From positions 1,091,001-1,155,000 of the forward strand of contig JBBPEB010000015.1 of assembly GCA_039096225.1 (NCBI GenBank): a stretch of 64,000 nt of DNA. The letters are read 5' to 3'. This document shows, one piece after another, positions 810 to 62,307 of the stretch. The notes beneath the pieces are model-generated. The model was not told where the DNA came from. It saw only the letters and a program-made list of their open reading frames with translations, and ran no database searches. The first letter of the stretch is position 1; every line of letters begins with the position of its first letter. The DNA comes from Blastocystis sp. Blastoise (lineage: Eukaryota; Sar; Bigyra; Opalinata; Blastocystidae). Made by a program: the position numbers and the translations under genes.

Positions 810-1919
810 TTCTTAGAATAAACTATTTTTATATTCTTATTGCATGTGATCCATATTTGTATCTACCCACATTTTCATATTAAATAATTGATTTTTATAG
901 TAATTTTTAAAAACAATTGTACTTATGATTTGATATTCTATAATAAATGCTTTGCTTCAATAGTCTCTCTATATGAACTCTATCTACTATAATATTTTTA
1001 TTCTTATTTGGTGAACGTTTTTCTGTTCTATTCAAAATGAGAAACCATTATTTATTTGTTTTGTATGAAATAGTTAAAAATAACACCGATTAATCAACCG
1101 AAATGATATAAAGCATTGTATACTACTATAATCTTTAACAGGAAAGCAAATAGATCTTTGATAATTGACAATTTTGTTTTCTTTAAAGCATTTTTTACTG
1201 ATTAAATAATTGAACACATACTAAAAATATTCTTCGTCCTATATATAGTCTAATAATTGGAAATAATGTCTATGTCATGAGTCACATATTGGTAAATATT
1301 CTTTTATTTTGATTTATCAGCACCCAAATTACTTTCTAAGCACACAGTGTCAATTTCTCAATATTTTATTTCACATATCTATTTTGTGTTCCTTCTCTAA
1401 TGACAGTAACTTGAAAGAATTTTTCAAGAAAATAATCTGTTTTTATTTGTAACATAATACAAAGTATATAGGTATAATCTTTTGTATGAAATCAATCATT
1501 ATTAATTCGTCATGATAAAAAAAATTGTTACAATCTAATAGAAAAAGCATAATAGACATCAAGATTCACATTAAACAGAGATGTTGAAACATTCAGATGC
1601 ATTGAATTTTATGTAAGAATATAGATGGTGCTCATGAAAAAACAGAATTGTCATTTTAAGACAAGATAAATTATAGATCATATATATAAAAATATGATCT
1701 TCCTAATACAGAAGTAATTACTATATGAAGATTCATATATCTAGAGTTAAAAGCTATTAAAATATCTGACGATTGAAAAAAAAAAATGATTGTTATATAT
1801 TGTCTTTATGTGCTGAGTCAGCTTTTTTTTGCTAACAAATATTATGAAAATAGCGAATGGTATATATAATATAAGCTTCAAATTCTTCTAATTATCTATA
1901 GATCCAGAATTATTCAAGT
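810..1919. other. Intergenic region
   Basis: About 1.1 kb between two + strand genes. AT-rich, with no convincing coding frame or RNA gene. It holds a short palindrome GCTGAGTCAGC near 1812 and a 13-mer at 1851 that recurs upstream of the acyl-CoA synthetase gene. It probably contains the terminator of the PLC-like gene and the promoter of the next gene. Confidence 0.6.
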
Positions 1920-2860
1920 ATGAAAGACTCATTTATCCAGGAGAGTTCGGACACAGTAATTACATTTTGTGGAATTGAGAAAAGAATCAAATGCAAAATA
2001 TCGTTAACCGATTTAATCAAATATAAAGATAGTTATCTATATTTATTATGGGAACAAGAGCAAAATCCTCAAAAAGATGATTACAATACAAATTATCCTG
2101 AGATTTATTTACCTCTTGTTATCAGTCATATGTGTGGCCGTCCTTTATTTTTAGAATTAAAATCAAGAACTGAATTAGAATTAATCAAACAACATTTCCA
2201 GTTTTATAATATTCCTTATCCTCTTGAAATTGATGATTTATTGGAAAAAGATTGGAATGATGGATTAAAAGGTGTTTATGGATATTTAACAATGATAGCA
2301 AATCAACTAATTCGTTTGAATCAATCCAATGTTGAACTCCAATCTGTATTTAGTTCGTTATGTAAAACTGTTGAAACTATTCATGTAGATATTCAAGATC
2401 TAAAGAAGGTAATTAATGAAAAGAATATTTCAGACTCATCTCTAAATATATCTTCAACACCATCACTTAAGCCATTACCATCAGCATCTCCATCTCCTAC
2501 AAATCGTTCTACAGATCCTGTTAATACTAAAACAATGCAAGCTGAACTTAAATTAGCACAAGAACAAATCGAAACTATGCAAAAAGATCGTTTATCTATA
2601 GAAAATATTGTTTATATATGCAGACGAGAAAATATTTCATTGCAACAACGAATAAATCGATATATAAGTACACAAGGTGATATATATAATCCAAATATGC
2701 TTTTTGTAGATAGTAAAATTATAGGTGGTATATATATTTACAGAGATGAAATTGTTGAATGGCTAGGAAGAGATACGCAATGGAAATTATTATATAGGTA
2801 TATATATATATATATATATATTAATATTGATAATAGTAATAATATATGTATAATAATAAT

Positions 2861-2904
<44 letters not shown>

Positions 2905-3605
2905 AGGTTCAAAAGATGGTTTTAAGGCGTCTACATTTCATCGTAAATGTGATAATTCATGTAAAACACTTACAATAATAAGGCACATTAATCAAAATGG
3001 ATTTACAAATATATTTGGAGGATATACAAAGCAAAGTTGGAAAGGAAATGGAAATAATCCAAGTATTTATTTTATTTTATTTTATTTAATTATTTTTTTT
3101 ATAATTTTATTTATTTATTTATTATTGCTTTTATTATTTTTATTTATTTATTTATTTATTATTGCTTTTATTATTTATACTTATATATATATATGTAATA
3201 TATAATATATAATATACTATATATATAATTGTTATACTTTTTTTAATAAAAATATAATTTATAATTTATATATAAATAGTAAAAAAGCCAGATACAACGT
3301 CATTTTTATTTTCCCTCGTAAATGAACATAATTTGCCTCCAACACAATTTCCAGTATTATATCCTAATGATGCTATATATTGTGATCCTCTTAAAGGACC
3401 TATTTTTGGTGGAACTATACCTGATCTATTTATTGATGATAACTCAAATATAAGCTGTAATAATTGTACAAATTCACGTGTATATTCTTCTATTCAAATT
3501 CCTCAGAAATCATCTATTTTTGTAAATACTAATTCTTCACAGGAAACTAATTATTTCAAAGTTGATGAAATAGAAGTATATGGAAGATATGAAGAAGAAT
3601 TTTAA
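1920..3605 (+). CDS. BTB/T1-like N-terminus + TLDc domain protein
   Basis: Three exons, 1920-2797, 2905-3062 and 3280-3605, encode 453 aa. Residues about 10-110 (TVITFCGIEKRIKCKIS...YLYLLWEQ...EIYLPLVISHMCGRPLFLEL) look like a BTB/T1 potassium-channel-tetramerisation-type fold. A helical stretch (about 120-170), a Ser/Pro/Thr linker and a second helical segment follow. From about 265 to the end is a TLDc domain, rebuilt only after splicing: WKLLYR|GSKDGFKASTFHRKC, TLTIIRHINQNGFTNIFGG, PIFGGTIPDLFIDDN and a final VDEIEVYGRYEEEF. TLDc proteins bind V-ATPase or act in oxidative-stress responses in other eukaryotes; BTB-like plus TLDc combinations occur in protists. The function here is inferred from family only. 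Start is the first ATG of the frame. Confidence 0.8.
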
Positions 3606-5209
3606 TTATAATAAGATATATATATATATATATATATATAACCATGATTGTGATTATAATTATAATTCTATATACTATTATGATGTGTCTTAAAGTATAA
3701 TAACAAATTATATTGTTTGAGTTTTTATCTTTTTATATTATATATAATAATATTAATAAATAGTATCAAATATATTGAAAATTCTTTTTTATCTTTCTAT
3801 ATGTATATATACATATACATATATATGTGAAGTATTCTTCTGTCAATTGTCTCTATATAATCAAATCACTTACTCTTTTGTTTTTCTTCTCATTCACTTT
3901 TTTTTTTAATTTAATAATATTATCAGTAGTAGATATAATATTTTTATCATTTTTCTGTCTTTTTCAATATTATATTCTTTTTTGTTGTGTAAGTTATTTC
4001 TCTTTTTTTCAACTTGTTTACCTATAATACTCATTTGTTTTAACATATCTATATATATATATATTATATATAATCTGAATGCTTTTTCTATATTATATAT
4101 CTACGTTTTACATCCATTATTATACAAATCATATATTTTTTGATATATATCTGCAGTCTCTCTAATTTTTTAAATTTTCTTCATTTTTAATTTTATTTCA
4201 TTCTCTTGCTATTAAACTACAAGTTTTATCTTTCATATTTCATTTTATATTTTGATATATATGTTTGTTTTAACTTTAACTTTATCTTTTTTTATTTTCT
4301 TTTTTTTCTTTGTAAACAATATATATACTTTATATTTAATCATTTTTATATTTTCTTATACTATTATTTTTTTGTTCTTTATATATATATTTATATATAT
4401 ATATTCATATCTATATATTATAGTTAAATATAATATCTTTTCTATTTTGTTTTTATATAATAATAATAAAATTTAAATTTTATATATAATTTTTTATTTT
4501 ATTATTTGCATAATTTTTATACGTTATTTTTATTATTTATTCATGTTTTTATACTAAAAACAATAATTATTATTTCATACATGTGTACCTTTATTTTTTA
4601 TTTTGAATACCTGATACTATTTTATTATTTCTTATTCTTCCGTGTATTTTATCTATTTTTCTTAAACAATTACGTATTGTTGTATACTTCTATTGTGTGC
4701 TACTAGTTTTTTTCTCATGTTGTCTTTTGTTCTTATATTCCACATTATTATTATTTCTCTTTTAAAAAATATAATCATTTGAGCTTTATAAATATAATTG
4801 TTGTCAATCTGTGTAAAAGGAAAACCTTTGAGAGAATACAATCAATATTTATTATTATGTTTATATGTTATAAAAATGTCCTACAATTATTTAATTTCCT
4901 TTTGATATAATATTATATATAAAGACTTTATTCCTAAGGTTTTATCTCAATTATATATAATATCGTTCACAATACGTTGTGTATAAAAAATATTATTTTT
5001 TAGTTTTTTAAAATAAATAACTTGGTCAATTATATATCGAATATAATAAATAATAATACTTTAAAAAACAATGTATATAATAAATGTATTTAGAAAGGAA
5101 AATATAAAGAATATATATAATATATAAAATAAACTATGAAATGAAACAATAATTAAAATGTTATAAAAATTAATAATAAAAACTAGAATAGTATAGTATA
5201 TAAATTATA
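3606..5209. other. Intergenic region between convergent genes
   Basis: About 1.6 kb between the stop of the BTB-TLDc gene and the stop of VPS13. Very AT-rich with T-runs and short (TA)n. Several open frames of 60-75 codons encode only Phe/Leu/Ile/Tyr-rich strings and overlap in different frames, as expected from base composition. No supported gene. Confidence 0.6.
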
Positions 5210-22542
<17,333 letters not shown>

Positions 22543-30984: not shown

Positions 30985-31057
30985 TGCTCAGACCGTGATT
31001 CGAACACGGGTTACCACGGCCACAACGTGGAGTACTGACCAACTATACTATCTAAGC
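30985..31057 (-). tRNA. tRNA-His(GUG): tRNA-His (anticodon GUG)
   Basis: On the minus strand the cloverleaf is complete. The acceptor GCTTAGA pairs with TCTGAGC over seven pairs (one G-T). The anticodon stem CCACG/CGTGG has the loop TTGTGGC, placing GTG at 34-36. The T-arm CCGTG/CACGG has loop TTCGAAT. There is no intron. The base before the acceptor is C, so the histidine identity base G-1 is not encoded and would be added post-transcriptionally, as usual in eukaryotes. A TTTTT run starting right after the discriminator base is a suitable Pol III terminator. Confidence 0.97.
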
Positions 31058-32416: not shown

Positions 32417-33115
32417 ATGAAACCCTACGTAAGAAACAATGAAACCACAAAACTTCCTGGTTTCCCTCTTTTCGCTGCATTGTCTGTAGCTTTTCTTGAT
32501 TCATTTTGTCTTCAAATCGTTACACCTCAATTACCTTTCATGGTAAAGGATTTTTATCCTCAAGTATGATATTTTCACATTTTTACATTCATTCTTCTAA
32601 AGCTTGATGATACTGAACTTGGTTACTATTCTGGGTTTTTAAGTGCTGCTTATTCTCTTGGAAATATACCAGGAAGTCTTTTCTGGGGTTGGTTTTCTGA
32701 TGAATTTGGTAGACGTACTTGTTTCTTGACTTCTTTAATTTGTATTTTTATATTATGATAAAATTGTTATAAACATGAATATATTATACATAGTATGCTT
32801 TATTTGTATGAATATCTTCGGTTTCTGTCCTGATTTCTGGTCTTGCTTAATTGTTCGTACACTTTGGGGATTCTTCTGTGGTTTTATGGGTACAGCTAAA
32901 ACTTATATTAGTGAAATTTGTAATTCTAAGACTCAAGGAAAAGGATTTTCTTTCTTTATTATGATTGGTGGTGTCTCTAAGTATATATATATATTTATAA
33001 TATATTCTAATAGTATATAGTGTCCTTGGACCTTCTCTTGGAGGTATTTTGTCGAAACCTACTCAAAATATGCCTTGGCTAGTTGATGCTATTCCTTATG
33101 TTAAAGAAGTATATA

Positions 33116-33185
<70 letters not shown>

Positions 33186-34472
33186 AATTTATTCTATTTC
33201 TATAGATTCCTTATTATATTCCTTGTTTTGTGGGTTCTATTTTAACTTTGATTATTTTCTTAATTGTTCTTTTTGGTCTTCCTGAAACTCTTCCTAAAAA
33301 TGAAAGAGATAAGAACAGATCAAGTAAGAAACAAATGAAAGTATATATATATATTATTCTATATATTAATAAAGATAGTTATATATATATTTATTCATCT
33401 TTTATGTATTAGTAATGAATATACATATATATAGGAATCTATTAAGAGTATTGAAGCTAAGAAAAAACAAAATCCTGATTATGAATACACTGAAAAAGGT
33501 ATAATTATATAAAGTAATAAATATAGTAACTATATATGTATATTTATAGAAATTGCTTTAGTTTCATGGAAGGGTGATAATTATGGACATTTATTTACAG
33601 AAAAGAATGCATTCTTAACTTGTGCTTTATATGGTATATATATATAATTCACATTTCTTTATATGTGTCACATATTATATCATTATACATATATATAGGT
33701 ATTATGTCCTTCTTACAAGGTATGCATGATGCTGTATATCCCCTTTGGGTTCTTAATCCTAGAAATATCCTTGTCATTCTATTCTATATATATATATATA
33801 TTATAAACATAATTCTCTATGTCTTTCTATGACAATAATTCAATTCTATATGATTATTATATATGCTGTATTTTTCTATCATTCCATATATTAATTCTCT
33901 CTATTTATATGTATATTTAACTATATTATCCTTAATATAATTACGTAAGAATGGCTTTGAAATGGATCAAACAGCTACTGGGTTCATGTATGCTGGTAAC
34001 GCCTTAGCTCAAATTCTTGATACTCGTATATATATATTATATATATACATAATTATTTTTTATATCATGATGAATAACATATTAATTATTGAACTAACTA
34101 TAATATTTTTTTTTAGCTCTTCTTCTTCCTTTATTTGCTACTTTATTTAACTATTTGGATATCAGTTTCTGGGCTATTATTATCTTTGGTATTGTCATGT
34201 TCATTACTCCTGTTCTTGGTCTTGCTTCTTATGCTCCTGCTTGGGTATATTATTATTATTATTATTTTTATTATTATTATCTGAGATATTATGATTATTA
34301 TGATTATTATTATTATATGGTATTATAATAATAATAATAATATTTTTTTTAATATTGAATCATCTTTCTAAATATATTCTCCTATATATAGTTACAATGG
34401 TTCTCCATTAATGTTATTTATAGTCTTGGTAATATTCCTAAATTAATTGCCTTCAGATATCCTTTTTATTAT

Positions 34473-34503
<31 letters not shown>

Positions 34504-35258
34504 TTATATAACTTTTTTCATGAGATCTCCTTAATATATATACTTCTATTATTGTTCTTGTTTCTAACTCAACATTCGCTGATTTCAGAAGTAAAGTCAA
34601 TGGTATTGGTCAAGTGTATTGTTCTATTGGCCGTTTTATTGTATTTATATATATTAACTATTATATATAGTGTATTTATATATCATTCATCTTCTATAGG
34701 GACCTGTGCTTGCTTCTTCATTATTCGCTTGGTCTGTCACTTCAGGCAACTCATTCCCCTTTGATTATGGTTTCACTTTATATGTATATATATATATATA
34801 TTAATGACTAACATTTATAAAAATTGTTATTATTCCACTATAAGTATTCTATATAAAATGATTCATCACTTTATTCTTTATAGGTGACTGGTATCTTATC
34901 AATTGCTTCTGCTTTCTGGTGTTGGCTTATACCTAAGAGTTGTAATGTGACTTCTATATCTATTGACCAATATGCTCATGAGATCTATACTTCTCGTCAT
35001 CCTGATATTGAAATGAATAAAATTGAAGAAACAGAAAAGAAAGAAGAATCGAAAGATGCTACATCTCCAACTATAGAGGCTACTAATGATACTACTCATG
35101 TTTCTCCCATTGCTATTACTAACGATAATGATACAAATCATCACGAACAATCTTCTCCTGAAACAAATACTACTCCCGATGCTATTAATTCTCCTTCTAT
35201 TCTCCCTTTGAACTCCATTCAAAGTAATACAGTTTCTGTAGAAGATGATCAACACTAA
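32417..35258 (+). CDS. MFS transporter, tandem copy 1
   Basis: 14 exons, 579 aa: 32417-32563, 32603-32741, 32794-32980, 33021-33108, 33206-33340, 33435-33498, 33550-33633, 33699-33764, 33945-34025, 34117-34244, 34392-34456, 34544-34640, 34700-34783, 34884-35258. Hallmarks: LDSFCLQIVTPQLPFMVKDF in TM1, LFWGWFSDEFGRRTCFLT (MFS motif A in loop 2-3), LWGFFCGFMGTAKTYISEIC, and VLGPSLGGILSKP (antiporter-type motif C, TM5). The general pattern resembles ZIF-like/DHA1 H+-coupled exporters. Substrate unknown. After TM12 a hydrophilic acidic/Ser/Thr tail of about 110 residues starts with IDQYAHEIYTS, a motif shared by the three copies. Introns 8 and 11 are AT-AC. One intron present in copies 2 and 3 is missing here (81-nt exon 9 = 36 + 45). 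Confidence 0.92.
33109..33205 (+). repeat. (ATT)n tract in MFS copy 1 intron
   Basis: This intron is mostly TTA/ATT units (about 20, 33118-33184). It interrupts the same codon position as a short intron in copy 3. Confidence 0.85.
33765..33944 (+). other. U12-type AT-AC intron, MFS copy 1, site 1
   Basis: 5' ATATCCTTGTC, branch-like TCCTTAAT 10 nt before the 3' end, 3' AATTAC. Phase 1. Splicing joins LNPR to SKNGFEMDQT. Confidence 0.88.
34457..34543 (+). other. U12-type AT-AC intron, MFS copy 1, site 2
   Basis: 5' ATATCCTTTTT, branch-like TCTCCTTAAT, 3' ATATAC. Phase 2. Splicing joins KLIAF to SSIIVLVSNSTFADFRSKVNG. Confidence 0.9.
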
Positions 35259-36063
35259 AGACTATTCTAGTTTTTAAATATATATATAAATCATTCTAGA
35301 ATTCTTATTATTAACTTCTTGGCTCTTTTTTTGTGTTATCAACTTTTTGATATTCTTTTGCTTTCTTATATATATTCTCATTAAACAGGTTCTCTTTCTT
35401 TGTTGCTATCAGTGACATAAAAGAACTTTTCTTTTTTATTATTTTTATATAAATTTTTAAAGATTCTACTTACTCTTATATATTCGTATATACTTTTTTA
35501 TTATACATACATATGAATTATTGATATAGAATGACTATATACAATATATCTTATGTATTTAGGAAAACCAAATAATAATTGATTTTCCTTATATATTCTT
35601 TCCTTTTTAATTCTTTTCGAACTTCTGTTGAACCCATGTGATCCACGCTACATACTTGTTTTGTTCTATCTTAATTTGTTTAAAAATTAAAAAAATAATT
35701 GAAAGAATGATATTAAAGAACATAGAATCATTTCGGATGAATATAAGCAATCATGGATGAAATAAAATACATATCTGAATAGGTAGCAAAAATATATTAT
35801 TCGTTTTCAAATCTAATTGACGTTTAAAATGTGTTTATATATATATTACTTTCTATAGATTCTCAAATATTCAAAACCGTTCAAAAACAAATTCATCTTA
35901 TGCATATATTCCATAAAAAAGGAAAAACAAAAAAATAATGGAATTTTCTACTTATTAACTGCTCCCGTGAAAACCAATCATTTCATAATACTATTTCAGA
36001 GTAACATTTTCCACATTGTTTTTTTCTCTTGTGTGTTGACATAGAGGCTCTGAGTCATTAAAA
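35259..36063. other. Intergenic region between MFS copies 1 and 2
   Basis: About 800 bp, AT-rich. It holds 3' flanking sequence of copy 1 and the promoter of copy 2. I find no open frame of note and no recognisable element; TTTTTTCTCTTGTGTGTTG lies about 45 bp upstream of the copy 2 ATG. Confidence 0.5.
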
Positions 36064-38725
36064 ATGAAGCCATTTACACACGGAAAAGATCCTAGAAAGA
36101 TGGAATGGGGTCCATTGACTTCTGTTTTGATGGTTGCCTTCATGGATTCGTTTTGTTATCAACTTATTTATCCGAATCTTGCATTTATGATCAAAGATTT
36201 CTTTCCTGGAATCAATGATACAGATATTGGATATTATTCTGGTGTTTTGACTGCTGCTTATTCTCTTGGAGGTATTCCAGGAAGTTTATTTTGGGGATGG
36301 TTTGCTGATAGATATGGGCGTCGAAAGTGTTTTTTGATTAGTCTTATTTGTATATTTATTTGTATGAATGCATTTGGATTAACAATGAATTTCTATGGTT
36401 CAGTTGCAATACGAGTTATTTGGGGATTTGCTAATGGTATTTTAGGTGCAACGAAAACATATATCAGTGAGATTTGTACAGATCATACACAGGCATTTGG
36501 TTTTGCTTTATTTAGTGCAATTGGAGGTGTTGCAGGTGTTTTTGGTCCTGTTCTAGGAGGTTTACTTGCAAAACCAGAACGTAATTTCCCTGGAATTGCA
36601 ATTGCAATTCCATTTTTAAGAGAATATCCTTATTATCTTCCTTGTTTTGTGGGAGGAATTGTGAATATTTTAGTAATCTTTTTAGTTATTTTCTGTCTTC
36701 CAGAAACACTTACCGATGAAGAAATCAAGAAGAATAATGAAAATAAATTATTAACGCAAGTAACTTATTATTATATATATATAGAAATATAGGACTAAAA
36801 TAATAATTGTTGAGATCTTATTCTTATTTATTAATATAGAAATCAATCAAAGAAGTACTTGATAAGAAGAAAAATGATTCAAAATATCAATTAACAGAAG
36901 AAGGTATGCTATTATATATTTATAGTGTATATCATTCATATATGTATATATTTATATATGTATATATTTATGTATGTATATGATTCATATAATATTATAT
37001 ATATATAGAAATTGAGTTAGAGTTATGGTCACAAGATAATTATTGGACAATTGGTGTCAATAAAGTCGTTGTTGTGTCATGTCTTCTCTATTGTATATAT
37101 GTATATAATACTATTCTGGTTATTAAAGAATATATATTATTACTTAATATTCTTAGTACTTATTTCCTTTGCTCAAGCTGCTCAAGATGCTCTTTTCCCT
37201 CTTTTTCTTCTAAATCCTAAAGATATCCTAATAATCTATATATTATATAATGTTATTATCTTACTGATTCATTTTTTACAATATTTTAGTTTTAATTTGT
37301 AATATATATATATTCTTAATTTATTAACAAGATCATGGATTTGAGTTTGATCAAACAGATATTGGTATATATACTACATTCATCTTATGCTTTTTCTACT
37401 ATATCTCTTCTATAGGATATGTATTTTCTGGTACTGTTATTGCACAAGCTTTATGCTCTCGTATATATACATATATTAATTTTATTCCTTATATACTACA
37501 ATACATATATTCTTCAATTACCTCTTTATATTCTTCTCCTATATTATAAATCATTATAAATCTCTCTCTTTATACCTACTTACTTAATTCTCTAGCACTT
37601 CTTTTACCTCTACTTCAAAAGTTCCTCTCCTATCGTCACACATACCTCATTTTCATGATTATTTATGGCTTTTGCAATCTCTTAACTCCTTTACTAGGTC
37701 TTCTTTCCTATGAAAACAAAACAGTAATTATTATTATATATAAATATAATAATAAAATAAGTTCAATTAATTGTTTTATAAATACTTATTAATCATATTA
37801 TTATAAATATATTATTATTATAGATTCAATGGTTTTGGTGCAATTTCTATTTCTCTTTCTCTTATGCTATTAGAATCTTAGCTTTTGCATATCCACTATA
37901 TTTTTTTGAGTTTTTATCATCTTAATATCTTAATTATTAATATCTTAATTATTTACTATAAGATATGTTTTCCTTAATAATTATACAGGATGCATGGTAT
38001 TGATTTCAAATTCTATTTTCTCTAATTTTAGAAGTAAAGTGAATGGTCTTGGTCAAGTATATGCCTCTGTTGGACGATTCTTGGTATATATTATTATATA
38101 TTATAGATAATCATTTAATTTATATTTTATTTATCTATCATTTAATATATTCATATATTATATTTATAGTTAATCCATTTAATATATTCATATTATATTA
38201 ATAGTTAATCCATTTAATATATTCATATTATATTTATAGTTAATCCATTTAATATATTCATATTATATTAATAGTTAATCCATTTAATATATTCATATTA
38301 TATTTATATATATATTTATATAGGGACCACTTATCTTCACTAGTCTCTTTGCATGGTCAACTTCTTCGGGTAATTCTTTCCCTTTTGATTATGGATTTGT
38401 CTTTTATGTATATATGAATCTATTACTTTTTATATATATTATATATTAATTATATATACATTTAATATATATATATATATAGTTATTATTCTTTGTCTGT
38501 ATTTTTTCAGGATTTTTAGCTTTATATATACCAAAACATGTGAATGATTTGCCTCCTACTGTCCATGAATATGCCAAACATCTGTATTCTATTCAACATG
38601 ATATTGAACTAAATAACGTCAATATATCAGAAAAGAAAGAAATTGCTTCTGATGATAAAGAAGATGTGAATAAAGTAATCAATAAAGTCAACCAAGACTC
38701 GAATGAAAAAATTACACCTTCTTAA
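36064..38725 (+). CDS. MFS transporter, tandem copy 2 (5' introns lost)
   Basis: 11 exons, 535 aa: 36064-36759, 36840-36903, 37009-37092, 37157-37222, 37329-37364, 37416-37460, 37596-37723, 37824-37888, 37987-38083, 38324-38407, 38483-38725. Same family as copies 1 and 3: FMDSFCYQLIYPNLAFMIKDF (TM1), LFWGWFADRYGRRKCFL (motif A), GILGATKTYISEIC, GVFGPVLGGLLAKP (motif C), and FRSKVNGLGQVYASVGRF. The tail begins VHEYAKHLYSIQHDIELN and is shorter than in the other copies. The 696-nt first exon equals exons 1-5 of copies 1 and 3 (147+139+187+88+135). Introns 4 and 8 are AT-AC. Likely a plasma- or vacuolar-membrane H+-coupled transporter; substrate unknown. Confidence 0.93.
37223..37328 (+). other. 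U12-type AT-AC intron, MFS copy 2, site 1
   Basis: 5' ATATCCTAATA, branch-like ATTCTTAAT, 3' TATTAAC. Phase 1. Splicing joins LNPK to EDHGFEFDQT. Confidence 0.82.
37889..37986 (+). other. U12-type AT-AC intron, MFS copy 2, site 2
   Basis: 5' ATATCCACTA, branch TTTTCCTTAAT (matches the consensus), 3' ATTATAC. Phase 2. Splicing joins RILAF to AGCMVLISNSIFSNFRSKV. Confidence 0.9.
38084..38323 (+). repeat. Tandem repeat in MFS copy 2 intron
   Basis: About four copies (about 38150-38310) of a unit of roughly 40 bp containing AGTTAATCCATTTAATATAT followed by TCATATTATATT(A/T)AT. It makes this intron (240 nt) longer than its counterparts in copies 1 and 3. Confidence 0.85.
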
Positions 38726-39391
38726 ACTATACAGAATAATTTATAATCAATGTTAACATATTTAAATACGTTTATTTTTTATTTTTAGAAAACACGTTTT
38801 GTTTTCGTATAATAATAATATTCTAATTATGTTATTGCTTTTTTCATAATCATAGAATATATTAATTATCGATAAATAGTAGTTTATCTATGTACTCACA
38901 ATTTGTGATTCATTTTGTATGTAATTCGTGTTGTTTTGTTTTTATAGGCATGTATCAATTTTAAATAAAAAATAAGCTCTTCATTAAGATTATTTTTTAT
39001 TCCTTTTATATAATAAAACCTTTTTTATAATTAAAAAAACAATTCGAAACACTATTACTATAAAGATTTCTCCATTTTGATGATTTCATCCAATATTGTG
39101 TTTTCTCTTAAGAGATCTTATTGGTTAAATCGTTATCGTCGATTTAGGTTTAACTTAGTTTTTTCTTATCTCAAAAACGTGGTTATTTGATCTTTTCTTG
39201 AGGGAAACTATTAATAACCATGAGTTACTCATTGCCTTTTATTTCATCCAATAGAAAACTAAAGAACAAATAGAAATCCGATTATCAAAAAACGAATAGC
39301 CATAAATGAATGGGAAGAATTTAGATAAATCTTTTATTTTAGTGATAATAAGATTTCTTGACATTATATTATATATATTTGACTAATAAAG
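38726..39391. other. Intergenic region between MFS copies 2 and 3
   Basis: About 670 bp with no open frame of note. AT-rich with a slightly less biased patch at 39100-39300, probably the promoter of copy 3. Confidence 0.5.
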
Positions 39392-42346
39392 ATGAAAGTA
39401 TTTGACCGTAGCAGTTATAATGGACAATTTCCTTATGGTCCTATAATTGCAGTTTGTTGTGTGACTTTTCTTGATCAATTTTCTCAACAACTAATAACTC
39501 CAACTATACCATTTATTGTTAAATCTTTTTATCCTGATGTATTTCTATATTTATTTGTGTTTCTTTTTCATAAAAAACACTATCGAATCTTATCTTATGA
39601 TTTGATATTATTAGTTGAATGATACTGAACTTGGATATTATGCTGGTTATTTGAATGCTTCTTTCTCACTTGGTAATATTCCAGGAAGTTTATTCTGGGG
39701 TTGGTATGCAGATCGAGTCGGAAGACGAAACTGCTTTCTTACAACCTTAACAGGTACGAATTGATGCAATAATTATCATTTATCCAGCTATAATATGAAA
39801 ATAATTATCCATTCTATTCGATAGGTGTATTCATATTATCGAATTTATTTGGAATATCTCCGAATTATGCTTTGGCTATCGTTTTTCGTGCATTATGGGG
39901 ATTTTTCCAAGGTAATGTTGGTCCTGCAAAGACTTATATTAGTGAAGTATGTACTCCAAAACAACAGGCACTTGGATTTTCGTTGTTTATTGCAGCTGCT
40001 GGTATTTCGAAGTAAGTTATAAAAAAATGATTGAATTGTCAAACAATAAATATGCAATATTTTATAGTTTTGTAGGTCCAACTGTTGGTGGTCTATTATC
40101 CAATTCCGATACTAACTTTCCTGCTCTAGTTAAAGCGATTCCTTTTTTAAAACAAGTATTTCTTCTTTCATTATTTATTTATATACCTTGTTTATATAGT
40201 ATAAATTCTATTTACCATGTTTTGTAGCCTCTATATTAATGTTATGTGTATTCTTCGAAGTTTTATTTATTGTTCCTGAGACATTGACTAAGAAACAGAT
40301 CAAAGTCAATGATGAAATGAAACATCAAACAAAAGTATTTTTTGATATATATCATTTAAATATATTTATATAGAAATTGTTATTAGAAGTAACAGAAAAA
40401 CAAAAGAAGGATCCAAATTATATGTTATCTGAAAAAGGTAATTTACTCTTTTTTTTTTAATTATCATATGTTAAAATTTAAAATATATTATTTTTCTATA
40501 AATTTTGAATATATAGAAATAGAAATAAAATTATGGGGTCAAGATAATTATATATCTGTTATAAAGAATAAGGATGTTCTTATTTCTGCTTCCTGTTATT
40601 GTATATTATCATTTATTATTATATAGTAATATATTATATATTATTATTCTACTTATTATTGATTATTTGTTTATTCTATTTTACTCTATAGTCTTATTAG
40701 CAGTTATTCAAGGAGCACAAGATTCTATTTATCCTGTATGGCTTCTTAATGATAAAGATATCTTTTTATTATATATTTATATATATATAATTGTTTTTAA
40801 TTCATCTTCTTTCTCATCAATTATTATTATTTCTTAATAATTTTTACAACATCATGGATTTGGATTTGATCAAACACAATTAGGTATATTTACACCATAT
40901 TAAATATATATTAGTATATATTCTATTTATTTAGGTTACTTAACATCTGGAAATTGTGTTGCTTTTATCTTTTCCTCTCGTATATATAGATTATAAATAG
41001 AGTTTTTACTAATTATTTCTATAAATATATAGCACTTCTTCTTCCTCAATTATCTCGTCTTTTCAACTATACCACTATTTTTACGGCTACAAGTATTCTT
41101 TTTGGTTTATTATTATGGATAGCCCCTGTTTCTGGAATTATGACTGAATCACCTGAATGGGTATAGAATACTATTTGTTTTTAATGTTATCTATTTATTG
41201 TATATAGTCTCAATGGTTTGTTACTAACTTTTTATATGGTTTAGCTCTTGGAATTCGTATTCTTGCGTTTGGATATCCTTTAATAACTTTATAGTTATCC
41301 TCTTTTTTTATCATTTTATTATTTATTATAGTATGCAATATATTTGTTATGACATTGTTTATTATATTATTTGTTCATTATTATAAATAGTTTTAAATAT
41401 CTTATTTATATTATAAATAGTTTTAAATATTTTATTTATATTATATATAATTTTAAATATAAATTATATAGTTTATATAAAAACTGTTTAAAATATATAC
41501 ATTATTTATTATATATAATATATTATTTCCTCTATTTCATGATTATATTCTTAATTAATATACTGCTACAATTGTTTTGGTTACAAACGCCACATATTCA
41601 AACTTTAGAAGTAAAGTGAATGGATTTGCTCAAGTCTGCTCTGCTTTCGGAAGAACTATTGTATATATAAATATTATATCTCATGATATCCGCTTTTTTT
41701 AACATTTCAATATTATACACTATGTATTTGATTTGATTTATATTATTCTATTTATATAGGGTCCAATATTAGGAACAAATTTATTTGCTTGGTCTATTGC
41801 TGAAACACGTTCATTCCCCTTTGATTATGGATTTGCTTTTTATGTATATATATATTTTTAAATATATATATAGCATTAGTATATGAATATTAATATATAA
41901 ATGTATGAAATATTATTATTATTCTATTATTAATTCTATTATAGGCAGATGGCTTATTATCTATTATATCTTCTTGTATTCCTATATTTATGCGTAAAGA
42001 TATTAATTGTCCTCCTCCTTCAGTTAGTGAATATGCACATACTCTATATATAAACTCTAGTAAAGATGTAGAATTACAAGTATCACCTAGTGAGGATATT
42101 ATAAATGAAACTAAAACTGAAACAGAAGATATGAAGAATGATCATAATGATAGTAAGAAAGATACTATAACTAATACTACATTGGAAGAGGAAGATAAAG
42201 CAAAAAAGTTAGACAGTCAATCATTTTCTAATTTAAACAGTACTTCTCACCAACTAGAAACAAATGATACTAATAATAGTATCAATCATGAAAATAATAT
42301 TCCTATTTCTATAAAAACTACTGAATCTAGTTCTGAAACAAAGTAA
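39392..42346 (+). CDS. MFS transporter, tandem copy 3
   Basis: 15 exons, 588 aa: 39392-39538, 39615-39753, 39825-40011, 40068-40155, 40200-40334, 40374-40437, 40517-40600, 40692-40757, 40848-40883, 40935-40979, 41033-41160, 41208-41272, 41564-41660, 41760-41843, 41945-42346. Exons 1-8 match copy 1 in length base for base, and exons 9-14 match copy 2. Motifs: [20 protein letters not shown] (TM1), [18 protein letters not shown] (motif A), [26 protein letters not shown] (motif C). The long hydrophilic tail starts [19 protein letters not shown] and is Asp/Glu/Asn/Thr-rich, likely cytosolic and regulatory. Introns 8 and 12 are AT-AC. This copy keeps the full intron set, so it best represents the ancestral gene structure. 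Substrate unknown. Confidence 0.93.
40758..40847 (+). other. U12-type AT-AC intron, MFS copy 3, site 1
   Basis: 5' ATATCTTTTT (one change from consensus), branch-like TTTCTTAAT, 3' TTTTTAC. Phase 1. Splicing joins LNDK to [10 protein letters not shown]. Confidence 0.8.
41273..41563 (+). other. U12-type AT-AC intron, MFS copy 3, site 2
   Basis: 5' ATATCCTTTAA, branch-like ATTCTTAAT, 3' AATATAC. Phase 2. At 291 nt it is the longest of the eight; its body holds AT-rich imperfect repeats (TATAAATAGTTTTAAATAT). Confidence 0.87.
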
Positions 42347-51554: not shown

Positions 51555-52224
51555 ATGAAGATTATCTTATCTACTGGTTTCGTTCATATTCCCGAAGGTG
51601 GTATGTACTATGTCTTTCTTTGATTTATATCTAAACTATTGTTAATTACATTTTAATTTCTTGCTATTTTACTTATTTTATCTCTATTTTTTTGTAACTG
51701 TTGAAGTTCATCACCGTAATGTCACTGTCACTGGTCCTCGTGGTTCCCTTCACCGTGAATTCAAACATCTTCCCGTTGATATGTCTCTTACCAACGATAA
51801 AAGAGTTAGAGTTGATATGTGGTTCGGTTTACATAAGAATATTGCTTGTGTCCGTACTGCTTGTTCTCACATTAAGAACATGATCACTGGTGTCGTCCAA
51901 GGTTTCAGATATAAGATGAGACTTGTATACGCTCACTTCCCCATCAACGCCTCTATTAATAAAGAAGGTAACATCTGTGAAGTCCGTAACTTCCTCGGTG
52001 AAAAGAGAGTTCGTGTTATTAACATGTTAGAAGGTGTCAAGATCTACAAATCTGATGATGTTAAGGATGAACTTGTTCTTGAAGGTAACTCTATTGAAAA
52101 CGTTTCTACTTCTGCTTTCCAAATCTATCAAAGCTGTCTTGTCAGAAATAAGGATATCCGTAAGTTCCTTGATGGTATCTATGTTTCCGAAAGAGGTGTT
52201 ATTCCCATCGAAGATGATGAATAA
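51555..52224 (+). CDS. RPL9: 60S ribosomal protein L9 (uL6)
   Basis: Two exons, 51555-51600 and 51707-52224, encode 187 aa, the usual length of eukaryotic L9. The start is [15 protein letters not shown], spliced to [19 protein letters not shown]. Other conserved blocks: [60 protein letters not shown] and [21 protein letters not shown]. Structural protein of the large subunit near the factor-binding site. Codon choice uses C-ending codons (AAC, TTC, CCC, GTC) more than its neighbours, as expected for a highly expressed gene. The single intron interrupts codon 16. Confidence 0.98.
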
Positions 52225-52506
52225 GACAATTAACCCGTTTGATATTTATAAACTGGAGACGATAATTCTTTGTGTTTTGTTTATTATTATTATATATTAT
52301 TAATAGTATATTGAGTGTTTAACTTAACTAGTTTTTTTTTTTTAAATCTAATTTTTTTTTTCTAACAAATTTAAAACTAAACAAGAATTTAATAATCTTA
52401 AAAATAAAATACATGTGCAACTTACAAAAAAAAATAAAAAGAAATAGTATGTTATAAGAAAGGAAAACAAATGAGAGTATACAAAAAAATAAACTATTAA
52501 TCACAA
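52225..52506. other. Convergent 3' spacer
   Basis: 282 bp between the stops of RPL9 (+) and the EH-domain gene (-). T-runs on one strand and A-runs on the other are compatible with back-to-back polyadenylation regions. Confidence 0.5.
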
Positions 52507-54845
52507 TTACTTTTTAGCAGCAGCCTTCTTTCTTGGTTTCTTTTCCTTAGATAAATCACCAAGAGCACCTAGAGCAAGAGATCCAGAAGCAACTCCTTCC
52601 TTACCACGACGTCTACCACGACTCTTCTTTTCTTCTCCAGCAGGAGCATCAAAACCACTTAAATCTAAAGCAGGAGCAGCAGGAGCAGCAGGTTCTTCTT
52701 CAGCACTCTTCTTACCCTTCTTACCAGCCTTCTTCTTAGGTTTTTCTTCCTCAGCAGGTTCATCACCACCAAAATCAAAGCCTATATCAGCAATAGGAGC
52801 AGCAGGTTCACTACTAGAAGGAGCATCAAATGAACTAAAATCTAAAGCAGGAGCAGCGTCAGCAACTGGTTCTTCTTCAGCACTCTTCTTACCTTTCTTA
52901 CTACCTTTCTTACCAGCCTTCTTCTTAGGTTTTTCTTCTTCAGCAGGTTCATCACCACCAAAATCAAAAGCAGGAGCAGCGTCAACAGCAGGGGCAGAAG
53001 CAGAAGGAGTTTCAAAAGATGACCAATCCATTGCAGGCATAACTGGAGCAGCAGGAGCAGCTGGTTCATCAAAAGAAGGTTCTTCAGCAGGTTCTTCACT
53101 TACAGCAGCATTCTTCTTACCTTTCTTACCCTTCTTTTCTTTCTTTTCTTCACTATTCTTCTTACCCTTCTTCTTAGGTTTTTCTTCCTTAGCAGGAGTA
53201 TCAAAAGCACTAGCATCAAAAGAGAATTCAGGTTGAGGAGCTTCTTCTTCTTCATCTCCAGAAGCAGCGAAATCTAAAGTTTCAGCAGGAGGAGGAGGAG
53301 GAGGAAGAGGTTTCTTAGATTTAGGAGGAGGTGGAGGAGGAGCATCAAATTGATCTTCTTCATCTTCATCAGCATTATCATCATGAGCTTCATTATTATC
53401 ACCACCAAAATCAAAGTCGAAATCATTATCATTATCATCAATAGCATTATCATCACCACCAAAATCACCCCAATCATCTTCACCATTATTAGAAGTAGGA
53501 GCAGGAGCAGAAGCTGTAGGTACAACACCAGGAGCAGAATCAAAATTGAAATCATCATTATCACTTACAGGAGCAGCAACAGGTTCAGATTCTTCAGGAA
53601 CAACAGGTTCAATAGGTTCAGCAGCAACAGGTTCAGGTTCAGCAGCAGGAGTTTCTTCAATATCTTCAGACTTACTCTTCTTACTCTTCTTATCCTTTTT
53701 ATCTTTCTTATCTTTCTTATCTTTCTTATCCTTTTTATCCTTTTTATCTTTCTTATCTTTCTTATCTTTCTTACTCTTCTTACCAGTAGATTCAGGTTCT
53801 ACACTTTCCATAGATTCAGCAGGTATTTCAGCAACAGGTTCAACAGATTCAGCAGGTACTTCAGGTTCAGCAGCAGGAATACCTTCATCAAAAGCAGGTT
53901 GTTCAGCAGAATCAAATCCCCATCCTTCTTGAGCAGCAGGTTCATCAGTATTTTCATCACCAAATCCCCAATCACCATTTTCAGCAGCTACATCAGCATT
54001 ATCACCACCAAATCCCCAATCATCACCACCTTGTTGTTCTTGTTCTTGTTCTTCAGGTTCAGCTTTTTCTTCTTCTTCTTGTTCTTCTTGTTCTTCAGGT
54101 TCTTCTTCAGGTTCTTCTTCATCTTCATCTACAAATTTAGGTTTAGCAGCAGGTTTAGGAGGTAACTAAAAATATTATTATCATAATTAAATTAATATAT
54201 ATTAATATTAATTATATAATTGAAAAAAAAAAAATATATATATATATATATATAAAAAGTATAAAAAGTAATTAACAATGAATTATAAATAGTATTAACA
54301 ATAATCATAAATAAATAGACAATAAATATATACAGGAGCAACACCCTTCTTAGCATTCAATACAGCTTGTGTGTTTTCAGCAATTGAATCAACCTTAGCA
54401 ATATAGTCAGTATTAAAAGCAATTTGAGAATCAAGTTCTTGTTTAATTCCATTAAGCATATTTAATTCCATATGCATAGCATTAATTTGATTTAATTTAT
54501 TTTGAATTTCAATATGTTGTTTAGATAATTTAGCTTTACACTTTTGAACTTCTTCACGTAATTTAACAAGATCATCACTAACCATCTTAATTTCTTCATC
54601 CTTTTCAGCAATTTCAGCCTTATTTTGTCTGAATTCATCCATACCTTGTTTCCAAGTCTTATTTAATTCAGTTTCAGTGTGAATGGATTCATCAACAGAT
54701 TCAGTAATCTAAAAATATATATAGATTTAAATAAATTGAATTATATATACAGAAGAGCTACGAGACATTTGAGCAAAAGCAGCCTATAAAAATAATAAAT
54801 ATTATATATAGAGATCAACCAAAATAATAAATAAATAGTGAAATA

Positions 54846-54881
<36 letters not shown>

Positions 54882-56484
54882 GAGCACCAGGACCCATAGG
54901 AGGTCTAGGAGGGAACATACCAGGACGAGGTGGAAGAGGTTTACCATCAGGTCCCATCATAGGTCTAGGAGGGAACATACCTGGTCTAGGAGGTAAAGGT
55001 TTACCATCAGGTCCAAGAGGAATAGGAAGAGGTTTACCATCAGGACCGATAGGAGGTCTAGGGAACATACCAGGACGAGGAGGTAAAGGTTGACCATCAG
55101 GTCCCATCATAGGACGAGGAGGCATACCAGGCATACCAGGCATACCAGGACGAGGAGGAAGAGGCATAGGAGCAGCAACAGGAGCAGGAGCAGCAACAGG
55201 AGTAGGAACAGGATTGACTTCTTCTTCAGGTTTTTCTTCTTCTTCTTCTTCTTCTTCTTCTTCTTTAGGTTCTTCTGTAGCAGGTTGTTCAGTGTCCATA
55301 CCAAAACCGAAATCCATACCCATATCAGTAGCAGGAGCAGGAGCAGCAGGAGTAGAGGAACCAAACATATCATCTATATATATAATAGAATAATAATATA
55401 TAGGAACAAATGAATATGATGAATATTATAATATAATATAATAAATATAATAAATATAATAAATATAATAAATAAATACCCATTCCCATTCCCATATTAG
55501 AATCAGAAGCAGCAGGTTCTTCAGCAGGTGTAGAATTACCAAATCCACCAAACATATCATCATCTTGAGTAGTAGCAGGTTCTTCAGCAGGTGTAGAATT
55601 ACCAAATCCACCAAACATATCATCTTCTTGAGTAGCAGCAGGTTCTTCAGGTTTAGGTGAAGTAGGAATACCACCAAAACCACCAAACATATCATCTTCT
55701 TCTTGTTTAGGTTCTTCAGGTTTAGGTGAAGTAGGAATAGTACCAAAACCACCAAACATATCTTCTTCTTCTTGTTTAGGTTCTTCCATAGCTACAGGAG
55801 CTTGAGGTTCAGCCATAGGGGAAGCAATAGGAGACATCATAGGAGAGACATTTTGACCTTGTAATTTCTGCATATAAGCTTGTTGTTCAGGATTAAGAGG
55901 TTTTTGAGCTTCAAATAAAGCACGTTTGGAAGGAGGAACAAGACATTCAGGAAGAGTATCAGGAATAGGTACACCCTAAAGGAAGAATTAAAATAAGAGA
56001 AGAATTATATATATATATTATATATAAAGATAAAAATGCAATATTAAATATACAATTAGAATAAGTTAATAAATAAATATATATATATATATATACAGTT
56101 CTACAAACCATAGCAAGATGAGTAGCAACAATAAATTCAGCTAAATCTAATTGACCATCTTGATCAAGATCAGCTAAGGTCCAAATCTTAGTTAACATCT
56201 ATAGAAATATGTATATCAATAATATATAAATTACAACATAAAAAAATATATATATAATATATTTACAATAAAATATTTATATATATATAAATGATATACT
56301 TCTTGAGGTAATTGAGATAAAGTGAGGAAATTAAAGGCTTCAGCTCCAGTAACAAATCCATTACCATCAACATCCTATAGATTGATGTTTAATAATAATA
56401 TAGGTGAAATATTTAATAATAAAATAGAAAATAATTCATTTGAATTATTAATATATTCAATAAAATAATAATAATAATTATTAT

Positions 56485-59948: not shown

Positions 59949-62307
59949 TTATTGAATAATATATAGATCTCCTTCGTCATTACCAGAAATAGCAAGTCTT
60001 CGTAAAGGGCATAAATCAATACAATTTAATTTGAGTTTTGATAAAGGAGCAAGTGTTATACCATCACATACATTATTACTCTTTGTTTGAAGATATATAG
60101 GTAATTGTTCAGGTTCAGGGTCAAAAATTAATTTATTTTCTATAGTAGATGTATAAATATGATTATTAATAGCTCCATAAACAGAGAAAGCAGATGTAGA
60201 AGGTAATATAGAGACACAAGAGGAGGAATTAATAGAAGGATAAGAAGATAAAGAAATAAAAATATGAGGAGATATCTTCTGATCAATAGAATCTTGTATT
60301 CTTTGTAAAGACCATATATTAATAGATCCATCAATGGAACATGTAATCATACGAGAAGAAGATAAAAATTGTATCTTTTTAATCTCTCTATTATGAGCTG
60401 CAAATTTATGTAAACAACTACCTGTTCTTTGATCAAGAATAGAAATATATCCATCAGTCCATCCTAAAATAATATACATATCTTGATAATTTGCCATAAC
60501 ACTGATTGTAGGTCTAGATTCATAAGTAGACCAAATAGGAAGAAGTTGCCAACGAGCGACTGTAGATATATCATTTGATTTCTCACGTAAATCAAAACAA
60601 TAAATATCATAATTATAAGAACTTGTATAGATTTGTTGATAAGGAGTATAATTACCAACACCACCTCCTGTAATAGAATCTGAAGAACATATCATAGAAG
60701 TATATTTAGAAGATTTATTATGATATATAAATTGTTCAGAAACATAATTATAGACAGAAAGAGTAGAAGCACAAGAAACTAAGAAATCTGAAGAAGCAAT
60801 AAAATCAAGAGAATGAATTCGACTTTCTTTTGAAGTTAAACTAATATGTGACTTCAAAGGACGTTTATCGAACTTCCATAACTTGACTACATTTTGATTT
60901 CCAACAGAAGACGATTCGATTCCCGCGGTTACAAAGAGTCTTTCATTAAAATGAGATTTAACTTGATAAATACTTGTATCATAAGCATTAATTTTTTGTT
61001 TTACAGAATATTGAAGATTAATAGGCATATCAATATCACATCGACCAGCACTATATCCTGAACATCCACCCACCATATACATACCTTGAGCAGATAACCA
61101 GGATTTAGGAGAAACTAAAGAAAATATACAGGAATTATATACGGAAATAGTTATAATGATAAAATAAAGAAGAATTAAATATGAATAAAAGACTCATGAA
61201 GGGATAAAGGAATAAATAATGAATGAGTAAAGAATATATTTTGTATAAATTGAAAGAAAACTAAAGAATAAGATAATAAAGGTAATATACTATTTCGAAG
61301 ATTGTTGTTCTTATATTGAGATGGAGGAGGAAGAGAAGTATAATGTTAAGAAATACATATAGTATATAGATATAAATAACATTTATTATAAATATATATA
61401 TATGAATAGTGGATATCCAGTAGATTGTGAGTAAGGAGAACTATAAAAATAATAATATATAATAATATATATATATAATAATAAATAATAATATATAATA
61501 ATATATAGTAAACATACATATCGTCTAATAAATCTGGATACATATCAAATATATTGTCTATATAGTATAAATATTATTAAAACTGATTTATATTATTACT
61601 TTTTAAATAATAATAACTGAAAATAAATATACTATTATAAAAATCTAATGCCAAGTGTATATATATAAACATTCCAAAAAAGAAAGAATAATTTTTAAAT
61701 ATGAAACAAAGAATAAAAATAAAGAATAAAAAACGTTTTGTATATATATATTATTATAATACCTTTAAGAAGTTCTACAAGTGGAGTAAAGAATACTTGT
61801 CGATTGGAATTGAGATAAGGAGTTACAGCTTTATCATATACCGCCTTTTTAATGGCGCCATATATACTGGGAATATCATCAGGCTAAATAAATAAGATAA
61901 TAGGATTTGAGATATATATCATATATATCTTGATAAAACGAAAGAAAGAAAAACTTATATATATTAATATTATAAGATATCTATGAGATTAACAGAAAAA
62001 TAATAATAAAAAAAAAGAAATACTTTTGTAATTTCAATAGCTTTATAATAGTCATGGAACTTCTTAAAGAACATGATGAGATCCATATATATATATTGCT
62101 TTTGAGCATCAATAGAGTAACGAGTGCAGATGTATATAGATTATGGATACACATTGAATATAGTAATTCTTTAAAAAAGTAATAAATTAATAGAATATTA
62201 ATATAAATAAAATGAATATATAAACATCTGTATATATGTGTTAATAAGGATATTTCATAGAAGAAACAAAGAATATCCACAATTAAACATATTTCTGCAT
62301 CCATATC

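Follow-up and report, generated by a model that had tools for sequence, protein, structure and literature searches.

Putative U12-type AT-AC introns in tandem transporter genes of Blastocystis sp. Blastoise, and a candidate U6atac with an altered box

A 64,000-nucleotide (nt) stretch of DNA from Blastocystis sp. Blastoise, a gut protist belonging to the Opalinata (stramenopiles), referred to here as the window, holds a tandem array of three MFS transporter genes (g1, g2 and g3) that contain AT-AC introns with features of the U12-type class. The genes were rebuilt by splice modelling, and the resulting proteins were then aligned. A fourth paralogue, g4, lies on another contig, C11. The genes are listed below with their lengths in amino acids (aa) and their deposited counterparts.

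32417..35258, plus strand: g1, MFS transporter gene, 14 exons, 579 aa by the AT-AC model; deposited as WA158_001184, P0002
36064..38725, plus strand: g2, MFS transporter gene, 11 exons, 535 aa; deposited as WA158_001185, P0001
39392..42346, plus strand: g3, MFS transporter gene, 15 exons, 588 aa; deposited as WA158_001186, P0007
C11:76558-76673 and C11:77061-77155: AT-AC introns of g4, at both sites described below; deposited as WA158_002641, P0006

Together, g1-g3 contain 37 introns, 31 of them GT-AG and six AT-AC, with GTATAT at the start of 17 of the 31 GT introns. The three proteins align without gaps across the transporter core and share 253/535, 250/569 and 239/532 identical aligned residues in the pairwise comparisons. 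MFS_1 was matched by g1 at 5.2e-37 (first 499 aa as query) and by g3 at 2.5e-37 (first 500 aa as query).

AT-AC introns at two common positions

The AT-AC introns of g1-g3 fall at two common positions, site 1 in phase 1 and site 2 in phase 2. The original prediction for this DNA described three introns, all at site 1; site 2 is an AT-AC position beyond these and is present in all three genes.

33765..33944, plus strand: g1 site 1, putative U12-type AT-AC intron, phase 1, 180 nt, ATATCCTTG ... TCCTTAATATAATTAC
34457..34543, plus strand: g1 site 2, putative U12-type AT-AC intron, phase 2, 87 nt, ATATCCTTT ... TCCTTAATATATATAC
37223..37328, plus strand: g2 site 1, putative U12-type AT-AC intron, phase 1, 106 nt, ATATCCTAA ... 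TTCTTAATTTATTAAC
37889..37986, plus strand: g2 site 2, putative U12-type AT-AC intron, phase 2, 98 nt, ATATCCACT ... TCCTTAATAATTATAC
40758..40847, plus strand: g3 site 1, putative U12-type AT-AC intron, phase 1, 90 nt, ATATCTTTT ... TTCTTAATAATTTTTAC
41273..41563, plus strand: g3 site 2, putative U12-type AT-AC intron, phase 2, 291 nt, ATATCCTTT ... TTCTTAATTAATATAC

All six introns begin with ATATC and five begin with ATATCC, resembling the 5' splice site [A/G]TATCCTT. The CTT at +6 to +8 is not kept in three of them, which carry ATATCTTT (changed at +6), ATATCCTA (at +8) and ATATCCAC (at +7 and +8). The branch site, TCCTTAAY-like throughout, is TCCTTAAT in three introns and TTCTTAAT in three, and the last base of the motif lies 8-9 nt from the intron end in every instance. 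The coordinates originally proposed for site 1 (33765-33944, 37223-37328 and 40758-40847) were reproduced exactly by the splice model, as were the starts (ATATCC, ATATCC and ATATCT, respectively), the AC ends, the phase and the rejoined peptides; the corresponding branch motifs (TCCTTAAT, TTCTTAAT and TTCTTAAT) were likewise present at 8-9 nt from the end. In the case of g2 site 2, an alternative AG lies two bases downstream, and its use would shift the frame.

A possible seventh AT-AC intron was noted elsewhere in the window, at 61338-61416 on the minus strand (ATATCCACTATT...TTCTTAACATTATAC), with an open phase-2 join, SPYSQSTG/SLPPPSQYKNNN. Pairs of U12-like motifs at 8011 and 26168 on the plus strand and at 52157 on the minus strand gave no convincing coding join when inspected by eye.

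All open in-frame joins between conserved anchors were enumerated at eight sites (the three site 1 and three site 2 introns of the window and the two in the C11 paralogue), allowing GT-AG, GC-AG, GT-AC, AT-AG or AT-AC ends. The target was the spacing of the AT-AC models, which equals that of homologues from outside this genome. Exactly one join per site kept this spacing among the five end types, and at 8/8 sites it was the AT-AC join with U12 motifs at both ends. When the end letters are left free, each site has 12-16 joins of the conserved length; spacing alone is therefore insufficient, and it is spacing together with end letters that fixes the intron ends. The earlier claim that a common frame cannot be had from any GT-AG choice is borne out, as GT-AG joins of the conserved length were found at none of the eight sites. 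An open in-frame GT-AG join of no more than 20 aa was present at one site, g1 site 1 (33773-33949), and is one residue longer than in the paralogues.

The outside alignment comprised eight proteins chosen from homologue listings of 44 and 27 rows: the Blastocystis-like P0003, P0004 and P0005, with BT1 and Nand II among their sources, and the more distant P0008, P0009 and P0045-P0047. Against these proteins, the AT-AC models of g1-g3 are gap-free at both junctions, with the exception of P0009, in which one residue is missing before site 2 and one is inserted after it. Equal spacing was also observed in two divergent paralogues from the same genome that lack the site 1 intron, C31 (LNPTEYHGF) and C20 (LNPISKGGF).

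The four deposited Blastoise models differ from the AT-AC reading at 8/8 sites. Intron pieces are retained at both sites in P0001; P0002 has one additional residue at site 1, and at site 2 seven residues replace ten; in P0006 and P0007, stretches flanking the sites are skipped. Were these models correct, the sites would be dealt with by GT-AG introns, by reading through some pieces and by skipping exons, leaving the AT-AC introns as an artefact of AT-rich sequence. The deposited proteins do carry such structures, and the open GT-AG join at g1 site 1 yields the LNPRNILNGF of P0002. However, every deposited model has residues too many or too few at both sites by comparison with the eight outside homologues, and the four are mutually inconsistent, whereas the AT-AC models are mutually consistent. 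With an open GT-AG join at only one of eight sites, and the conserved length at none, this explanation is very improbable. The AT-AC models would correct four deposited transporter models. The comparison suggests that further AT-AC introns of the Blastoise record are misread too, these four models being the ones checked, and misread introns would pass into any survey using the Blastoise annotation. Trouble with Blastocystis annotation is mentioned in the Eukan paper, the available part of which contains no occurrence of AT-AC introns.

Candidate minor-spliceosome genes and the probable class of the introns

The whole genome was scanned with Rfam models for the minor small nuclear RNAs (snRNAs), 39-48 of 946-4012 first-look candidates being scored per RNA. 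Candidates for U11, U12, U4atac and U6atac, all of which the original prediction had named as RNAs to look for, are present. Full-length matches to U11 (62.9 bits) and U6atac (63.8 bits) exceed the Rfam cut-offs of 39 and 33. A promoter-like element, CTTCTAATCA, lies 57-64 nt upstream of all four genes and of U6; a sample of 400,000 positions contained it twice, and the window not at all. The complementarities of U11, U12 and U4atac are retained. The 5' end of U11 reads AUAAAGG and is complementary to CCTTTAT, the sequence with which the strongest donors start when read from +5, and U12 carries the branch-site element GUAAGGAA. Stems of 13 and 8 base pairs are predicted between U4atac and Blastoise U6atac, in a complex of -42.8 kcal/mol with the U4atac 5' stem-loop included.

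Candidate proteins were also found. A Ubiquitin_4 domain, presumably that of the 25K protein, scored 45.9 bits when counted with its neighbour, which is above the cut-off. The zf-U11-48K model was above its cut-off at three places, with a best score of 40.5 bits; the 48K-type zinc finger occurs in tRNA methyltransferases too. The C-terminus of PDCD7, which is taken here to be the 59K protein, reached 25.3 bits, under the cut-off of 27. A genome devoid of every minor-spliceosome part, the circumstance that had been named as fatal to a U12-type reading, is not what was found, given four snRNA genes and candidates for 25K, 48K and 59K.

A genome-wide scan was made for ATATC, 30-60 bases, TCCTTAAY, 4-9 bases and AC. 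The 97 rows obtained were reduced to 73 by removal of 22 copies of one repeat and two nested starts; these rows were not checked singly for coding flanks, and some resemble coding sequence. CTT at +6 to +8 was present in 25 of the 73 rows, compared to 1.7 expected from the 25/1071 ATATCNNN in a 200-kb sample made up of 20 stretches of contigs C3 and C8. This enrichment has a P of ~1e-22 on the assumption of independent rows; the 25 include one identical pair. A stringent scan for GTATCCTT...AG with the same gaps gave one repeat-like row (control, 0), whereas the AT...AC scan had given 25 rows with ATATCCTT. The strong-motif U12-type introns of Blastoise seem to be overwhelmingly AT-AC, with GT-AG members rare. 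Looser donors in the 200-kb sample came near the reversed-donor control, at 7 vs 6 for ATATCC and 17 vs 14 for ATATCT. A repeat dispersed over many contigs, in which ATATCACGTGCTTTTCTTCATTTGATTCGGGAGTACAAATACATCCTTAAC occurs in slightly varying form, was counted by eye at 22 places.

On the strength of these sequence features, the six window introns and the two in the C11 paralogue are very probably AT-AC introns of the U12 type that the minor spliceosome removes. The assignment upholds what was originally proposed for the three site 1 introns and draws on the 5' splice site, the branch site, the short distance from branch site to 3' splice site, the frame, and the spacing in paralogues and homologues, as well as on the snRNA genes and the candidate 25K, 48K and 59K proteins.

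Several observations weigh against this assignment, as does the pairing of U6atac described in the next section. The junctions are predicted from frame, spacing and homologues, and the deposited gene models make no use of these introns. The U12 match (46.8 bits, E 6.1e-7) and the U4atac match (29.7 bits, E 0.045) are full-length and lie under their cut-offs, 53 in each case; these two matches, which would be weak on their own, gain support from the promoter-like element and, for U4atac, from the predicted stems with U6atac. Pairing with U11 averages -3.9 kcal/mol for the six window introns, weaker than the -5.0 kcal/mol for the 25 ATATCCTT rows. The zf-U11-48K model was also above its cut-off in one of 14 prokaryote control genomes. 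In the genome-wide scan, a backwards-pattern control outnumbers the real pattern, with 167 (73+94) vs 97 (53+44) rows, and the strict count (ATATCCT/branch/AC) in the 200-kb sample was 3, vs 5 with the branch reversed and 1 with the donor reversed. Motif counts alone are therefore weak in this AT-rich genome, and what carries the case for U12-type introns is the enrichment at the donor together with the evidence from coding sequence. The idea that this genome is far richer in minor introns than Blastocystis ST1 was rejected on the same strict count (3 vs controls of 1 and 5), as nothing suggests thousands.

U2-type AT-AC introns exist in other organisms, and AT-AC ends alone do not prove class. 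Removal of the present introns by the major spliceosome is nonetheless scarcely credible: their donors are ATATCC or ATATCT whereas 31/31 neighbouring introns begin with GT (17/31 with GTATAT), TCCTTAAT or TTCTTAAT stands 8-9 nt before the end in 6/6, so that donor and branch site are of the U12 kind rather than the major kind in all six, and candidates for all four minor snRNAs are in the genome.

As U12-type introns, they would be bound at both ends by U11/U12, the U4atac/U6atac.U5 tri-snRNP (small nuclear ribonucleoprotein) would then replace U11 at the donor, and two transesterifications would join the exons; this order follows the known pathway. Since each gene has two AT-AC introns, every transcript would have to undergo minor splicing twice to give a full-length transporter. 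As the U6atac found does not have the usual AAGGA box for pairing with the donor (next section), the choice of donor probably depends mainly on U11. Inheritance through the duplications that produced g1-g4 is the probable origin of the introns in each copy. Their persistence in diverged copies, which the original prediction offered as an argument for function, is real, but the argument is weaker than proposed because inheritance through duplication explains it equally simply.

The box of the candidate U6atac

C21:544821-544937 (1501-1617 of the extracted stretch), minus strand: U6atac candidate, sole copy found, otherwise well conserved

This gene resembles the Rfam U6atac (RF00619) over its full length (63.8 bits), including the core GAGAGAAGGUUAGCA, the 3' stem-loop, the T-run and a predicted pairing with U4atac. 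It differs at the positions that pair with the 5' splice site, where Blastoise has GCCGA and the Rfam consensus AAGGA (UGAGCCGAGAGAAGG as compared to UGAAAGGAGAGAAGG). U6, at 94.1 bits, was found about 7 kb away on the same contig and strand (1523-1634 of its extracted stretch, minus strand, C21).

The complementarity of an AAGGA box to +4 to +8 of the 5' splice site was not found. Among 24 distinct ATATCCTT donors, U6atac in the standard register pairs at +4 in 24, at +5 in 24, at +6 and +7 in 0 and at +8 in 24 (wobble); with the eight MFS introns, the corresponding numbers are 8, 8, 0, 0 and 7. The Rfam consensus box would pair at all five positions in 24/24 donors and in 8, 8, 8, 7 and 6 of the eight MFS introns. 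The best free duplex of the altered U6atac most often shifts to GAAGGUUAG, and its mean energy is -4.85 vs -6.87 kcal/mol for the consensus. Pairing between U6atac and the 5' splice site is reportedly required in vivo, to go by the title of a 1998 paper by Incorvaia and Padgett cited in PMC3584512; the lack of pairing at +6 and +7 conflicts with such a requirement. The AAGGAGAGA box interaction is called perfectly conserved in a figure legend (PMC8283771). In the literature searched, no published description of a changed U6atac box was found.

Either the minor spliceosome works with a weakened helix between U6atac and the 5' splice site, or the true U6atac has been missed. It is quite plausible, if still short of probable, that the working RNA has a box other than GCCGA, the standard gene being unassembled or missed, or GCCGA a base-call error; this bears on the U6atac point only. 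Donors strongly keep CT at +6 and +7, which would be expected with continued reading by U11 or by a standard U6atac. The assembly could be incomplete, and of 946 first-look candidates for U6atac, 46 were scored in the model scan. However, a second U6atac was not found in the whole genome, where the model scan gave one at 5.4e-14 and, apart from it, a weak match that is U6. The core word GAGAGAAGGTTAGCA has one exact occurrence, and of 11 further places with one or two mismatches, the seven fetched all lack the promoter element, whereas the GCCGA-box gene has the promoter element, the T-run and the predicted U4atac pairing. A search of viral and prokaryote collections for U6atac of other eukaryotes gave 0 and 0; a looser pattern had 2 and 5 matches, with Rfam U6atac recognizing 0/7.

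A minor spliceosome with a weakened helix, whose sole U6atac lacks the canonical five-base pairing through the change from AAGGA to GCCGA, is put forward only tentatively. In such a spliceosome, donors would remain ATATCCTT since U11 still reads them, and activation of the 5' splice site would tolerate the two-base mismatch at +6/+7, use the shifted register (GAAGGUUAG) or lean on proteins. Donors fitting the new box (ATATCGG) were not present among the 97 rows of the ATATC...AC scan. If this reading is true, donor recognition would be separated from donor activation in a natural system; a change that is real and expressed would offer a natural test of the need for pairing between U6atac and the 5' splice site.

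Minor introns in Blastocystis and intron history

U12-type introns and their machinery are already known in Blastocystis, and the window introns add members. In the available parts of the published accounts, ST1 is given 346 U12-type introns in 319 genes, four snRNAs and seven proteins (Gentekaki et al. 2017, PMC5608401), both introns and components are reported for ST7 (PMC5608401), and a later count for ST1 is 253, AT-AC rich (196/253, 77%) and very short (Larue and Roy 2023, PMC10639083). Blastoise resembles these in genus, AT-AC dominance and machinery. The window introns differ in length, at 87-291 nt vs an ST1 median of 39 bp (PMC10639083), and in phase, being 1 and 2 where 49% of those in ST1 are phase 0. 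Four Blastoise paralogues have two minor introns each, as compared to the ST1 average of 346 in 319 genes. No paper naming both Blastoise and Blastocystis was found in the literature searched.

The canonical U12-type AT-AC introns known from animals and plants, as generally understood, share with those of Blastoise the ATATCCTT donor, TCCTTAAY near AC, and U11, U12, U4atac and U6atac. Unlike the canonical set, Blastoise seems to have few GT-AG members, and its U6atac lacks the AAGGA box.

In a nine-row tree of N-termini, C31, which lacks the site 1 intron, falls outside g1-g4 and the three Blastocystis-like proteins. With one of six inner branches well supported, a midpoint root and outside genes whose introns are not known, gain versus loss is undecided by this tree. 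Larue and Roy, in the part of their paper available, expect comparisons across more species of the clade to show if the minor introns of Blastocystis were gained recently (PMC10639083), and the Blastoise paralogues, some of which have the site 1 intron while others lack it, offer material for that question.

Two minor observations concern the surroundings of the array. A tRNA-His lies upstream of it, at 30985-31057 on the minus strand. The G+C content is 34-37% at 52001-56000 vs 16-28% in the remaining 2-kb steps of the window.

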